Shown here one piece after another: positions 3,031-18,853 of a DNA stretch of 37,765 nucleotides. The DNA comes from a virus. The notes under the pieces are model-generated. The model was given only the letters and a program-made list of their open reading frames with translations. It made no database searches and was not told where the DNA came from. The stretch's first letter is position 1, and each line of letters begins with the position of its first letter. The stretch covers positions 1-37,765 of IMG/VR virus record IMGVR_UViG_3300030090_005017; one strand, written 5' to 3'. Both the position numbers and the translations under genes were made by a program.

Positions 3031-3297
3031 ATGGCGGTTAGAAAAAAAAGAGCAACAAAAAAGAAACCGACCCAGAGAAGTCTTGACCGATGGTCTAGTC
3101 AGAATTGGCGCACACCGTCCGGCAAGAAGTCTTCTGAGACGGGCGAGGTTTACGCTCCAGCCGCTACAATACGCAAGCTTAAGAGCACGGCAGCAGGCCG
3201 CAAAAAACTAGCGGCGGCAAACAAAAAGAAAAGAGCAGCAACAAAGGCAGGTAAGCAACATGCACGACATGGCTTACACAAGGGGAAGAAACGATGA
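3031..3297 (+). CDS. Very basic small protein (88 aa), SLDRW/GKQH type
   Basis: An 88-residue basic protein. After a lysine-rich start it has the block SLDRWSSQNWRTPSGKKSS, TGEVYAPAATIRKLKS, then KKKRAATKAGKQHARHG. The pattern W..Q.WRT.SGK..S.TGE.Y, followed by KxKRAxxKxGKQ, is one I recall from a widespread domain of unknown function in phages and aquatic microbes (possibly DUF5872, not verified). It overlaps the next gene by 4 bases (ATGA). Last of the four-gene basic cluster. Confidence 0.75.
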   Translation: MAVRKKRATKKKPTQRSLDRWSSQNWRTPSGKKSSETGEVYAPAATIRKLKSTAAGRKKLAAANKKKRAATKAGKQHARHGLHKGKKR

Positions 3298-3989
3298 GCT
3301 TTCTGGTTGCAAACCTTCCTCTTGAGCCCGTCTACGTTCGCAACGAGTTTCTGTACAATTTCAAAAAAGGACACGGCGAGTTTACCAGGGGGTATTGGGT
3401 TAGCGTCAAAGCGCAAAAGCACCGGGCGTTGCTTTTTGAGACGTTGCTGGAGAACGGTGCCCTTTACGACAAGCTGCCCATCGAGGCATTTGTTCACGAC
3501 AAAGAAGGCAACTTTCGTTTTAATCAAGGTGAGCTGGCGCTTTGGGATATGGATTCTTGGTACATTACGACAATTGTTAAAGATGCCTTGCGGCACCTTG
3601 ATGCGAAAGTGCGGGTCGGCAACGAGCTAGTTAGCGGCACCTACGTCTGCACCGTTGACCAGGTTGATGCGAGTGGTGAACTAATGTCTACGTGTGCATC
3701 GATACCAAAAGAGCACAAGAGTCAGAACATTCTTGCTCTGGATAATGGACAGTTTTGCTCAATGCCCAACAATCGTATCTTGTGGACAGAGCCGAGCCTT
3801 ACCAAGGTAGTGGGGCCGCCAGACTACGAAGCGTGCGAAGAAATTTATTTTAGCAACACAGGACTAAACTACTGCCACACAGACGCGTGGTTTTACGAGG
3901 GGAAGCCAGATGAAAAAACCAATGAAGCCGAAGCCGAAAAAAGTAATGCCAAAAAAGAAGAAGCCAAAAAAGAAGCCGAAGAAAATTAA
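3294..3989 (+). CDS. Hypothetical protein with charged C-terminal tail
   Basis: A 231-residue soluble protein with no recognised family. Residues 1-200 look globular and rich in aromatic residues (FLYNFKKGHGEFTRGYWVSV, LALWDMDSWYITTIV) and contain six cysteines. Residues about 203-231 are a low-complexity Lys/Glu/Ala tail. The ATG overlaps the previous stop (ATGA). It sits between the basic cluster and the endolysin in one operon. The DNA of the tail also encodes a Lys/Pro-rich peptide in another frame (3910-4002). Confidence 0.7.
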   Translation: MSFLVANLPLEPVYVRNEFLYNFKKGHGEFTRGYWVSVKAQKHRALLFETLLENGALYDKLPIEAFVHDKEGNFRFNQGELALWDMDSWYITTIVKDALRHLDAKVRVGNELVSGTYVCTVDQVDASGELMSTCASIPKEHKSQNILALDNGQFCSMPNNRILWTEPSLTKVVGPPDYEACEEIYFSNTGLNYCHTDAWFYEGKPDEKTNEAEAEKSNAKKEEAKKEAEEN

Positions 3990-5946: not shown

Positions 5947-5962
5947 ATTGTCACTCCCTGAT

Positions 5963-6006
5963 GTTAGATTTCTGTTGACGTTAACCGCAACAACACTTAA
6001 GGTCAA
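5963..6006 (-). promoter_or_regulatory. Early promoter for ssb operon
   Basis: On the minus strand: -35 TTGACC (6006-6001), 17-bp spacer, -10 TAACGT (5983-5978), 7 nt, then AATCTAAC (5970-5963), 24 nt before the ssb ATG. It overlaps the opposing exonuclease promoter almost completely. Confidence 0.6.
5975..5990. promoter_or_regulatory. Candidate operator TTGACG-TTAA-CCGCAA
   Basis: An imperfect inverted repeat matching the TTGCGG-N4-CCGCAA element at 11562 and 12763. It covers the -35 of the rightward promoter and the -10 of the leftward one, so one bound protein could shut both. Confidence 0.55.
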
Positions 6007-14340: not shown

Positions 14341-14366
14341 CACCGCACGAAGAAATATTTTCATAC

Positions 14367-14405
14367 ATGCTCCGCACGGTTTCGATCATGCGGGGCATTT
14401 TTTTT
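14367..14405 (+). terminator. Rho-independent terminator ending early operon
   Basis: ATGCTCCGCA (14367-14376) pairs with TGCGGGGCAT (14389-14398, one G-U pair), followed by a run of eight T. Placed 27 bp after the last early gene. Confidence 0.9.
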
Positions 14406-14437
14406 GCTGTGAAGCATGCACGAAGAGAGGCGAGCAC

Positions 14438-14580
14438 TGCGCAAGCCATGCACGAAACATGTAGCGAAAAGCGGTTGTTTTGATGTCTAAAACCCAACAG
14501 GATGCCACTAGTGCATGAAACATGTATTGAAAGATAATAACATAAAAGAGTTTGCAAAAAGGCCTGATAGGGCTTGCGCA
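14438..14580. repeat. Inverted-repeat-flanked direct repeats (iteron-like)
   Basis: TGCGCAAGCC at 14438-14447 is the exact reverse complement of GGCTTGCGCA at 14571-14580. Between them lie two imperfect 21-22 bp direct repeats, 14449-14470 and 14512-14533, sharing GAAACATGTA. Related inverted copies (TTTCATACATG at 14359-14369 and GTTCATACATG at 14604-14614) lie just outside. The arrangement is like initiator-binding iterons. Confidence 0.6.
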
Positions 14581-14662
14581 AAAGTTTGGGCAGATTTTCG
14601 GTAGTTCATACATGGTAGACAACTCGCCCGAAGATGTGAGAATCTAATCGAGTTAACTTCGG

Positions 14663-14714
14663 GGCTGGACACATTGCAGACTTAATCCAACCCTATTTTG
14701 TAGTGTGTCCGGCC
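14663..14714 (+). repeat. 11-bp stem with 30-nt loop
   Basis: GGCTGGACACA (14663-14673) pairs with TGTGTCCGGCC (14704-14714) with one G-U pair. TATTTTATCC follows. It could be a regulatory RNA stem or a weak terminator. Confidence 0.55.
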
Positions 14715-14806
14715 TATTTTATCCCCTTAGAAGCTATTCTCCGGCGCTTGTGGTGCATTTATCGGCGCCCCCGGTGATGATTTATTGTTGGCCGAAGGGC
14801 TGGCGG

Positions 14807-14844
14807 TAGATTTTTATCTATTTTGATAGATTTTTATCTATTTT
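14807..14844. repeat. 18-bp perfect direct repeat, 20-bp period
   Basis: TAGATTTTTATCTATTTT occurs at 14807-14824 and 14827-14844. Each unit contains the inverted repeat TAGAT-TTTT-ATCTA, so both a tandem protein site and paired hairpins are possible. Confidence 0.85.
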
Positions 14845-14970
14845 TTGGTGCCGTGCGCGTTTTATGCGCGCGCTAAGTGCTACGCTCGAGACCTCGAGAC
14901 CTGTGCGCGGGTTTTTTCCGTGGCTGGTGCGTGGTTTGTGCGTGGTCGGCGCCTCAAGAGCTCGCAGATG

Positions 14971-14985
14971 CCGAAGGTCATTCGG
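14971..14985. repeat. Small hairpin CCGAA-N5-TTCGG (copy 1)
   Basis: A 5-bp inverted repeat with loop GGTCA. A longer version with loop GTCAA lies at 15174-15190. Confidence 0.5.
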
Positions 14986-15034
14986 TGGGCGTGATTCGGT
15001 GAAATAGGCTATTTCCGACACCCCCTAAAGTATC

Positions 15035-15047
15035 AAGGTAGTACCTT
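15035..15047. promoter_or_regulatory. Perfect palindrome AAGGTA-G-TACCTT
   Basis: A 6-bp inverted repeat about one central base, typical in size for a dimeric repressor site. No second copy was found. Confidence 0.4.
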
Positions 15048-15173
15048 TCCGGCATGGTCACCCGTCGTTTATTCTGTAGAGGTCGACCGCAACCGAATAA
15101 GTCAAACGAGCGTAACCCATTGACCTGAATAAGTAAAAAATCATTGTTTTTTGTGCGGCGTTGCGGCGTACTT

Positions 15174-15190
15174 TCCGAAGTCAATTCGGA
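15174..15190. repeat. Small hairpin TCCGAA-N5-TTCGGA (copy 2)
   Basis: A 6-bp inverted repeat with loop GTCAA, related to copy 1 at 14971. It is followed by a G8 run at 15192-15199 and GCCCCC. Confidence 0.5.
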
Positions 15191-15297
15191 TGGGGGGGGT
15201 GCCCCCGCGCCGGGCTTTTCCCTTTTTTATTAATTACCCTCACACTCACTCCCCCCAAAGTGCATTTGACGCAATGCGTTGTTGATTCCACTTTTAT

Positions 15298-15312
15298 ATT
15301 TATTTAATAAAT
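15298..15312. repeat. AT-rich palindrome ATTTATT-T-AATAAAT
   Basis: A 7-bp inverted repeat about one base inside an AT-rich patch. It could be an unwinding element or a host-factor site (IHF/H-NS type). Confidence 0.45.
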
Positions 15313-15373
15313 CGCCACGGGGGATGTGCTTAATAAAACGAGCTCTGTAGGCCGACCGGCTAACCCCGTCCAC

Positions 15374-15402
15374 TTGTTTTTATTCAGGGTCCAGCGTATC
15401 CT
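15374..15402 (+). promoter_or_regulatory. Candidate late promoter
   Basis: -35 TTGTTT (15374-15379), 17-bp spacer, -10 TATCCT (15397-15402), 21 bp before the ATG at 15424. It lacks the GGACTAAC start sequence of the early promoters, in keeping with a separate control class. Confidence 0.45.
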
Positions 15403-15423
15403 TTGCTCAACAGGAGATGGGGC

Positions 15424-16200
15424 ATGGCAGAATATGTTAAAACGGTAGTTTCGGCGCTTTCTAGTAGATCTTCGGACTACTCAAGCCCTCATGTGTTTTT
15501 AAACGAGGCCACCCAAACCCAGACTGATGAGAAGGTTGTCCGTGTCGATGGTCGTCTTGAGGCGCAAACAACGGTTGGAACTAGCACTCTTTATAGTGCG
15601 GTAGACTATGTAGATTTGTCCCTTCAAGGCTTAACCTCTGTAAACACCTTTATTCTGCACAATCGCTCAGATTATGAACTTCTCTTACAGTGCTACATTC
15701 TCCAGGCTGACCTTAGCGGGAGCACTATTGGTGTCTGCACTTTCTCAAGCAACAACCAGATTGACTCAGCCGTAGACTCTGCTTTTACAAAAGGCTTTCA
15801 AACTGGAGCCCTTCACGCAACGCACCTAAATACTTACGGGGCAAAAACCAGCAACAACAACGACTTTGCTGCAATTACTAGCATTAGTGCCTCGTCCAGC
15901 GGCTCTTTAAACCGGATCGTTGTTTCAGGGACTCCTTTTGGAACAAATGAAGCCGAAGATGCTTCAGGCCATAGTACAACGCTTGGCATCCAGCTTTTTA
16001 CTAAGAGTAATTTTTATGTACCTGCTGGGGGCGTTATTTCTCTGCCAGGCCAACTTGCCAAAATTAAGGCCAACATTGCTTCTCTTCAAGAAGTTGACCA
16101 CGAGATTCGTATCCAGCCGGGATTTACTGCGGTTAACTCTAAAACCGGAGTAACCAGCCCAATCGACTACACTATTTTTATGTCGGGAACTGTCGGATAA
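15424..16200 (+). CDS. Probable virion protein at head of late operon
   Basis: A 258-residue protein, Ser/Thr/Asn-rich and strand-forming (VDYVDLSLQGLTSVNTFILH, NRSDYELLLQCYILQADLSG, FYVPAGGVISLPG). This looks like an all-beta structural or decoration protein. ATG 15424 is chosen because AGGAG (15412-15416) sits 7 nt before it; an in-frame TTG upstream has no ribosome site. It is the first late gene, just before the terminase genes. No family was recognised. Confidence 0.65.
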   Translation: MAEYVKTVVSALSSRSSDYSSPHVFLNEATQTQTDEKVVRVDGRLEAQTTVGTSTLYSAVDYVDLSLQGLTSVNTFILHNRSDYELLLQCYILQADLSGSTIGVCTFSSNNQIDSAVDSAFTKGFQTGALHATHLNTYGAKTSNNNDFAAITSISASSSGSLNRIVVSGTPFGTNEAEDASGHSTTLGIQLFTKSNFYVPAGGVISLPGQLAKIKANIASLQEVDHEIRIQPGFTAVNSKTGVTSPIDYTIFMSGTVG

Positions 16201-16226: not shown

Positions 16227-16670
16227 ATGTCGAAGAAGATTTATATGGGGAAGAGCCTTGAGGTCCGTTACGACGAGGCTTGCAAGACCAAGGGCGGAAA
16301 ACTAGACCGCCGGGAAATCCTAGAACTCGCTGAGCAAGACCTTGAAACCGAGGGGTCCAGAGTTCAGATAAACAAGCGCCAGGCAGACCTAATTGATATT
16401 CGGGTTATGCCGAGCCTCCACAGCATTATGGAAAACGCCCTTGCGGTGATTGATTCCGAAGTACGGCACCATCTTAGGGTTTCTACTTCTAGCAGCGGCC
16501 TAGACCGCCAACAGGTGCATTCTTTTGGTCAAATGACCCGTTCACTGGCCCAGATTGTTGGTATCGAAAAAGAGCTCAAGGAGCAGTCTGACCTAGACGC
16601 CATGAGTGATGCCGATTTAATCAAGTTGGCCGAGATGACAAGCAACAGATTAAAGGATGGCGATAAATGA
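16227..16670 (+). CDS. Putative terminase small subunit
   Basis: A 147-residue mostly helical protein (LDRREILELAEQDLETEGSR, SLHSIMENALAVIDSEVRHH, DADLIKLAEMTSNRL). Size, helical nature and position upstream of the large subunit suit TerS, the DNA-recognition ring of the packaging motor. A clear N-terminal helix-turn-helix is not obvious, so the call rests mainly on context. The stop overlaps the next start. Confidence 0.5.
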   Translation: MSKKIYMGKSLEVRYDEACKTKGGKLDRREILELAEQDLETEGSRVQINKRQADLIDIRVMPSLHSIMENALAVIDSEVRHHLRVSTSSSGLDRQQVHSFGQMTRSLAQIVGIEKELKEQSDLDAMSDADLIKLAEMTSNRLKDGDK

Positions 16671-17173: not shown

Positions 17174-17406
17174 GAGTACAGCTCACAGAGTCAGCCAGAA
17201 GCGTCTTAAATAAAAGCTTTTTAGCTTCCGATCACTATGATTTGTCTTTTGAAAAAGTAGAAGGCGTTTTAGGGGTCCGCATCATCGATAAAAAGAAAGG
17301 TTCTTATTGGTTGCCAATGAGTTCTATTTCTTGGTGCCGAACAAAAGGCAAAGCTGCCCCGAAAAAAGGTCGGCCTAAAAAGGTAACGAATGCCAAAGCA
17401 GCCTGA
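17161..17406 (+). CDS. Small hypothetical protein with AT-hook-like tail
   Basis: An 81-residue protein overlapping the previous gene by 13 bp and the terminase start by 17 bp. The first 60 residues look alpha/beta (VEGVLGVRIIDKKKGSYWLP). The tail APKKGRPKKVTNAKAA contains KGRPKK, close to an AT-hook (RGRP). DNA binding near the packaging genes is plausible but unproven. Confidence 0.6.
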   Translation: MEIVGVQLTESARSVLNKSFLASDHYDLSFEKVEGVLGVRIIDKKKGSYWLPMSSISWCRTKGKAAPKKGRPKKVTNAKAA

Positions 17407-18853
17407 GTCATACGCCTCTCGCCAGGTTCTAAAGGAGTTTGTTAAGCGCTTTGGTGATGCCAATGCCCTTAAAGAAGAAAGCGCTGCGTCAAAGGACCGC
17501 AGTTATCGTTGGCAAGAAGATTTGTTTGAGCACCAGCTTGCGTTTATTAACGACCCTTCTTCTTTTAAAACAGCCCTATGCTCCCGGCGAGCTGGCAAGA
17601 CTTACGCCAGTTGTTACTACCTAATTGAAACAGCATCTAAACATCCTGACTCGTTGTCGGCCTACATCGCACTTACACGCACAAGTGCTAAGCGCCTAAT
17701 GTGGATGGAGCTTAAAAGAGCAAACCGGCGTTACCACATAGGAATGCGGTTTAATAACTCAGAGCTCGTGGCGACACTGCCCAATAACAGCCAGATAATT
17801 TTAACAGGTGCAAACGACGAAGCTGATATCGATAAGCTTCGTGGGTCTGCTTACCGTCTAGTTATTCTTGACGAAGCTGCGAGTTTTGGTGCCCACATGG
17901 AAGAGTTGGTCCAGGAAGTTCTTGAGCCTGCGCTTATTGACCATAACGGCACACTGGCAATGATTGGGACGCCTAACGCCTCATGTAGCGGCATGTTTTT
18001 TCATGCAACGACAAACCCTGCATTTGGCTACAGCAACCACCATTGGACTATCATGGACAACCCGCACATACCTCACGCCAAGGACTGGCTTGAAAGGCGT
18101 ATGCGCCAGAAGAAGTGGGACGACACAAACCCGGTTTATCTCCGAGAATGGCGAGGCCAATGGATTAGGTCTGAAGATTCCTTGGTCTACAAATACTCTG
18201 AAGAGAAGAATTTTTACGATGAGGTGCCTTACCATGAGTACGATTTTGATTTTATTCTGGGTGTGGATTTAGGTTACGAAGATGCCACGGCTTTTGTAGT
18301 TGGAGCGTATAGCCCCGAACTGCCTTATTTTTTCGTGGTAGACACTTTCAAGCAGTCCAAGATGCTGCCTTCTGAAATTGCTATAAAAATTCAAGAATAC
18401 AATGAGATGTATAACTTTACGTCCATCGTGGCAGATACCGGCGGCTTGGGTAAATCCATTGTAGAAGAGTTTAGGCAGCGTTGGGCCTTACCTATTAAAG
18501 CAGCAGAAAAGCGAAACAAAGCCGCTTATATCGAGCTTATGAACTCGGATTTAGCTGCCGGAAATATTTTAGTAAATGAGTTGTCAGATTTAGTGGACGA
18601 ATGGCGTCTACTACAGTGGGACGAAGACCGCCGCAAAGAAGATGGTAGGTTTGACAACCACCTGTCTGATGCCTGCCTGTACGCCTGGCGAGAGTCTAAG
18701 CACTTTACTCACGAAGAAGAATTATTGCCGCCCCAGATGGGAAGCCCCGAGTTTCACAAGGAATGGGAGCAAAGGTATTGGGCCGGAGTTGCTGATAAAA
18801 TTGAAGACACCAGCGAGGAAGGGACGGGTACGCCTGAATGGATGATGAACTAA
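17390..18853 (+). CDS. terL: Terminase large subunit
   Basis: A 487-residue packaging motor and nuclease. ATPase: Walker A-like CSRRAGKT (64-71), Walker B LVILDE (157-162), coupling motif IGTP (192-195). RNase H-like nuclease: D293 in GVDLGYEDAT, D349 in VADTGG, D427 in DNHLSDACLYAW. The order and length match other TerL proteins. AAGGT precedes the ATG, which overlaps the upstream gene. It cuts and pumps DNA into the prohead through the portal encoded just downstream. Confidence 0.95.
   Translation: MPKQPESYASRQVLKEFVKRFGDANALKEESAASKDRSYRWQEDLFEHQLAFINDPSSFKTALCSRRAGKTYASCYYLIETASKHPDSLSAYIALTRTSAKRLMWMELKRANRRYHIGMRFNNSELVATLPNNSQIILTGANDEADIDKLRGSAYRLVILDEAASFGAHMEELVQEVLEPALIDHNGTLAMIGTPNASCSGMFFHATTNPAFGYSNHHWTIMDNPHIPHAKDWLERRMRQKKWDDTNPVYLREWRGQWIRSEDSLVYKYSEEKNFYDEVPYHEYDFDFILGVDLGYEDATAFVVGAYSPELPYFFVVDTFKQSKMLPSEIAIKIQEYNEMYNFTSIVADTGGLGKSIVEEFRQRWALPIKAAEKRNKAAYIELMNSDLAAGNILVNELSDLVDEWRLLQWDEDRRKEDGRFDNHLSDACLYAWRESKHFTHEEELLPPQMGSPEFHKEWEQRYWAGVADKIEDTSEEGTGTPEWMMN

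Follow-up and report, generated by a model that had tools for sequence, protein, structure and literature searches.

A conserved gene-free locus at the early/late boundary of an uncultured tailed phage, with a candidate bistable leader RNA

Why should about one kilobase of a phage genome carry no gene at the very place where the rightward early genes give way to the late operon? The question is raised by positions 14341–15423 (hereafter, the gap) of a 37,765-base contig from an uncultured tailed phage, the whole of which we call the window. Its recognisable products are the large terminase subunit (TerL, 17390–18853), a portal, a major capsid protein, an SU10-type adaptor, a D5-type helicase, RecE/RecT-like proteins and a single-stranded DNA-binding protein (SSB). 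The best TerL identity to an isolate is about 25%, and the gap had no DNA match in the phage collection. All comparisons are based on about 80 relatives obtained by TerL searches of viral contigs, in which close relatives have a TerL identity of at least 88% and the distant relatives compared 58–76%; the lineages compared are not fully independent.

A preliminary description, made from the letters of the window, had proposed a gene-free replication origin or packaging locus here. The absence of genes is borne out, since stop-free stretches do not exceed 88 codons and none of them persists through the indel-rich alignment of the close relatives. Most of the gap can be aligned among these, with numerous indels and without any frame being preserved; beyond them, a profile search with overlapping blocks recovers by sequence essentially only about 15190–15290. 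Since no conserved protein turned up and relatives share the region, the description is not refuted on either point. Judged by these alignments, the gap is a special conserved non-coding locus. We tentatively read it as a transcription control region that would act as an early/late switch with a bistable leader RNA, a reading that we favour but would not quite call probable.

A leader hairpin with two alternative partners

The long stem of the preliminary description was found, at 14662–14715 on the + strand, where the 5' arm (segment A, 14662–14680, defined by folding and comparison) and its long final partner (A'', 14697–14715) form 19 pairs, 5 of them G-U. The many G-U pairs make the stem far more stable on the + strand (-28.8 kcal/mol) than on the minus strand (-15.8 kcal/mol), and 5 pairs are changed on both sides among 7 close relatives. 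That description had missed the switching design of the stem, together with the promoter, the start-site palindrome and the element at 15229–15280 (the late element) that are treated below. The loop of the stem also contains a shorter stretch complementary to the 5' arm (A', 14686–14694, + strand), which makes 8 of 9 possible pairs with 14661–14669 in the window and 7–12 pairs with A in 16 other lineages.

In distant relatives, the strongest hairpins 5' of the late element show the same three-segment design in unrelated sequence. A scan for the A-A'-A'' arrangement, at a score of at least 33 on the + strand, detected it in 19 of the 24 upstream regions from relatives with 58–76% TerL identity, and the identical scan detected it in none of 168 controls (24 minus-strand, 96 Markov-resampled and 48 late-region sequences). 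The window itself falls under the threshold because of the one mismatch in A:A'. Four loci were scanned later (L075, L097, L101 and L106); L075, L097/L101 and L106 keep the triple hairpin with scores of 40–46, with no palindrome and no match to the sequence model of the late element (model R1).

Segments pair almost completely with partners from their own lineage and poorly with those from other lineages, both for A:A'' (0.98 vs 0.51) and for A:A' (0.99 vs 0.41). Across 17 lineages, the energies range from -20 to -31 kcal/mol for A:A'' and from -8 to -16 kcal/mol for A:A', and the minus strand is weaker in all 17. Minimum-energy folding of a 42–49-nt prefix gives A:A' in 17/17 lineages, and at 66–72 nt no A:A' pair remains and A:A'' is formed, near full length in 16/17 by script count. 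As far as comparison can tell, both helices are kept by co-variation, and the pairing geometry and the + strand bias are conserved while almost all the letters have changed. The predicted leader is thus of the metastable-hairpin kind, in which an early hairpin is replaced by a later and more stable one.

This conservation of geometry with nearly all letters changed is the reason why the leader is missed by sequence-based searches and by Rfam. Rfam 15 gave no gathering-level match in the window, and at E ≤ 0.5 its one match among five relatives was a microRNA below threshold and without relevance, located elsewhere in L078. As for targets in trans, no other match of at least 11 nt to 14652–14720 occurs in the window on either strand. 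In five lineages (L066, L077, L089, L091 and L103), a small rightward gene lies about 100–200 bp 3' of the leader hairpin; its product starts MxTLRISDNEVA in L077 and L089, and it may be the target of the leader there.

Start-site palindrome and late element

Just 5' of the hairpin lies a predicted sigma70-type promoter (14616–14645, + strand), with the -35 hexamer TAGACA at 14616–14621, also listed with a 16-nt spacer, and a degenerate -10 hexamer GAATCT at 14640–14645 that keeps A at -11 and T at -7. It is followed by a palindrome, P (GTTAAC, 14652–14657, + strand), the core of AGTTAACT, at the predicted transcription start. Of 19 lineages, 18 have a perfect palindrome of 6–10 bp at the P position (against a null mean of 3.4 and a maximum of 11 over 2000 draws), separated from the paired 5' region by a linker of about 3–8 nt. 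Its sequence varies across lineages (GTTAAC, GAATTC, AACGTT, GATATC, GTATAC, AGATCT and TGCGCA), and sister lineages with similar flanks differ at P by compensating changes, as L078 (GAATTC) does from L084 (GATATC) and L095 (GTTAAC) from L100 (GAATTC). When 16 lineages are anchored on P, a TTGACA-like hexamer peaks only 35–36 nt upstream, A is found at -11 in 13 and T at -7 in 11; this spacing places the predicted start at the palindrome. Two other roles for P were discarded: a rare cleavage site, as palindromic 6-mers are not rare in these genomes, and a shared operator, as the changes in P are not matched at the early promoter.

Conserved sequence is what usually leads to switching RNAs; here, the conserved features are promoter spacing, palindrome symmetry and two alternative helices. 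If the reading of a switch is true, the locus would be a compact timer of gene expression that depends on pairing and not on particular letters, and would offer a testable way into the control of late genes in a group of uncultured phages.

The late element (15229–15280, + strand) consists of ACCCTCACACTCACTC at 15236–15251, about 15 nt, and the imperfect palindrome TGACGCAATGCGTTG at 15267–15281; its first half is also written CCCTCACACTCACTC. The palindrome has the consensus TGACGCAnTGCGTyA, and the two halves are 30–32 bp apart, start to start. Model R1, built from 31 sequences, matches the element in the window with E=3.6e-14, finds one full-length copy per record and recovers it in L078/L080/L084, outside the training set, with E=1.3e-7. 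Where measured, 65–190 bp separate the element from the first late ATG downstream of it, be it that of the putative small terminase subunit (TerS) or of another gene. In the window, the first late gene (15424–16200, + strand, ATG at 15424) has no assigned product. It is missing in L006/L007/L008, in which the late element stands directly 5' of the gene at 16227. The latter (16227–16670) is named TerS by position only, since it has no family match and its model is helical with low confidence (predicted local distance difference test, pLDDT, 62).

In two lineages (G007/G008 and G019), a PAPS-reductase-like gene is preceded by a further copy of the palindrome half alone, which suggests a shared regulator site. 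From this comparison, the behaviour of the late element suggests a regulator site rather than a packaging site. This second copy, TGACGCAATGCGTC, lies just 5' of the gene, which is on the minus strand, at L113:1547 (G007:3046–3067), in L114 and in L115 (G019:21154–21176). As for a T7-like promoter at the late element, PF00940 (single-subunit RNA polymerase) had no match in a search that had no positive control, and the largest proteins had no Pfam match bearing on a T7-like polymerase. In addition, the late element is single copy, whereas T7-like promoters are expected in several copies.

A possible early/late switch and its alternatives

In the reading as an early/late switch, the early genes would end at a terminator at 14367–14405, and the sigma70-like, host-type promoter would start a rightward transcript at or beside the palindrome at 14652. 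The first 65 nt or so of this RNA would form a kinetic switch, in which A pairs with A' once A' is made and A'' then displaces A' to give the longer hairpin. Such a two-step fold could work as a timer: one structure would be presented with the polymerase at about +55 to +60 and a different one beyond about +80, as estimated by adding to the folding lengths the stretch of RNA that a polymerase usually covers. Its most likely role would be to time or modify the passage of polymerase through the leader and the terminator-like hairpins toward the late operon, while 15229–15280 would control the late transcription start itself. The leader is flanked by terminators, and the polymerase in cis would be the most economical target, by analogy with HK022 put. 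We infer that the RNA is made, that it starts at the palindrome, that it refolds in the cell and that it affects the late genes.

Parts of this arrangement are known elsewhere. In ColE1 RNA II, one segment has two alternative partners on a long non-coding leader, as is predicted here; the order and the lengths differ, and no antisense RNA or priming site was identified in the window. The leader may nevertheless act in ColE1-like priming, or may form an RNA dimer through the palindrome. The lambda late promoter PR' has a leader, a terminator and the protein Q. The locus shares with PR' a single late control region and the order of promoter, leader, terminator and late genes, but a bistable RNA and a palindromic start are not part of PR'. 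No homologue of lambda Q (PMC7171158) was identified, though no systematic search was made. Metastable 5' hairpins are known in the hok and aapA3 type I toxin mRNAs (PMC6733600), in hok likewise at the 5' end; here no toxin gene was found, the final partner is local (within about 65 nt) and the setting is an early/late boundary of a phage.

Several observations weigh against the switch as we read it. The scan was devised once visual inspection of part of the loci that it covers had shown the pattern. The -10 hexamer is weak, the putative start is placed from spacing alone, and between lineages the palindrome retains its symmetry and not its sequence. Lacking a T-run in most lineages, with at most a short TTTT in some, the final hairpin does not qualify as a simple attenuator. 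Between the leader and the late element, several distant lineages carry a small + strand gene, in some with its own promoter-like sequence, so that the RNA may serve that gene instead.

In HK022, putL lies just downstream of PL, is about 70 nt long and folds into two stem-loops, and put RNAs share sequence similarity (PMC9378689). An RNA-only antitermination in cis of this type, in which a 5'-terminal hairpin would bind its own polymerase and allow read-through into the late operon, is by analogy an unlikely account. Like put, the leader would be a structured RNA (about 65–70 nt) that opens a sigma70-dependent phage transcript, with terminator-like hairpins ahead; but it has one long hairpin with an internal alternative partner in place of two stem-loops, and its sequence is not conserved, so that a function in pairing only fits better than put. 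Taken by two stem-loops and conserved sequence, the leader is not a put RNA. No more probable is the wider idea of a new class of phage RNA device selected for pairing geometry, in which a palindromic start and a two-step hairpin, the RNA possibly dimerising via the palindrome, would give a protein-free early-to-late switch that acts through the polymerase. Somewhat less probable again, the palindrome would be an operator for a phage regulator of fast-changing specificity and the hairpin would only insulate or stabilise the transcript. The dimer-type symmetry at the start site and the change of its sequence between lineages agree with this, but a second co-varying site is missing (L118 has GAATTC at P, yet keeps the GTTAAC of the window's early promoter) and A' is left unexplained.

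Other alternatives concern the DNA itself. That the late element serves the small terminase subunit as its pac or cos site is improbable in our view, although its single full-length copy 5' of the terminase genes, the fixed spacing of its halves and the ends of some contigs near it would fit. The element remains beside the first late gene through gains and losses of genes ahead of the putative TerS, and near-complete contigs continue across it. A contig that stops at a conserved block may reflect an assembly break, and the palindrome half in G007/G008/G019 points to a regulator. The packaging locus proposed earlier may still apply to this element; for the stem, a 5'-leader RNA is the better explanation. 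The placement of the gap immediately 5' of the terminase operon is borne out by TerL (17390), TerS being positional. Physical genome ends at P or at the late element were rejected: L051, L103 and L131 end there, but long contigs continue, and such ends are expected from assembly. The origin proposed in the same description found no support. In the form that is nearest to ColE1, refolding of the RNA would decide whether an R-loop persists and primes replication further downstream, which we regard as distinctly unlikely. The locus is single in each genome, the leader stands about 270–1400 bp from the late element, an AT- or pyrimidine-rich tract precedes that element, and helicase/primase, SSB and recombination genes are encoded by the phage itself. 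Against these points, cumulative GC skew is nearly monotonic with no turn at the gap (coding bias confounds the skew), the late element stays close to the first late gene, and the supposed iterons amount to a 21-mer in two copies (86% alike), degenerate and not kept in relatives.

Other features of the gap and the window

Most of the repeats listed in the preliminary description are chance occurrences or limited to close relatives. The 10-bp inverted repeat (14438–14447/14571–14580) is perfect, but as many are found in 27.5% of shuffles, and in L007/L008/L009 it is no longer intact. The neighbours of the outer CATGTATGAAA copies account for them in part, since 14359–14369 runs into the early terminator and 14606–14614 lies just 5' of the -35 hexamer. 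That intrinsic terminator of the early operon (14367–14405, + strand) has a stem at 14368–14376/14389–14397 followed by 8 T; its stem changes in L006 and L009 stay paired, and its loop GGTTTCGATCAT is constant.

A second small hairpin (14751–14772, + strand) has a loop, TTTATCG, conserved in close relatives only. The tandem 18-mers TAGATTTTTATCTATTTT (14807–14844) are exact, as described (14807–14824 and 14827–14844), in close relatives only and absent in L009; with the preceding G-U-rich stem at 14779–14812, they are possibly a terminator. Two tandem 8-mers TGCGGCGT (15154–15169, + strand), about 60 bp before the late element, are conserved in close relatives with one mismatch in L009. Just 5' of that element, a G-run/C-run hairpin with a T-rich tract (15192–15229, + strand) is terminator-like and has analogues in L089, L091, L110 and L078.

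Outside the gap, the divergent SSB/exonuclease promoter (5947–6033) has GTTGACGTTAACCGCAAC in the clade of the window, and in L134 it carries a long inverted repeat, TTGACGGTAGCATCATAATGATGCTAACGTCAA, with a similar one in L135. The protein encoded at 3294–3989 strongly matches phrog_3704 (ferredoxin / host takeover, E 1.7e-56). Near-identical tail-fibre segments are apparently encoded at both contig ends, 244–1572 and 37565–37765 (...EIVFCTSADGSETPSERVHIFSNGS...), which may reflect a circularly permuted genome or duplicated parts of the fibre.
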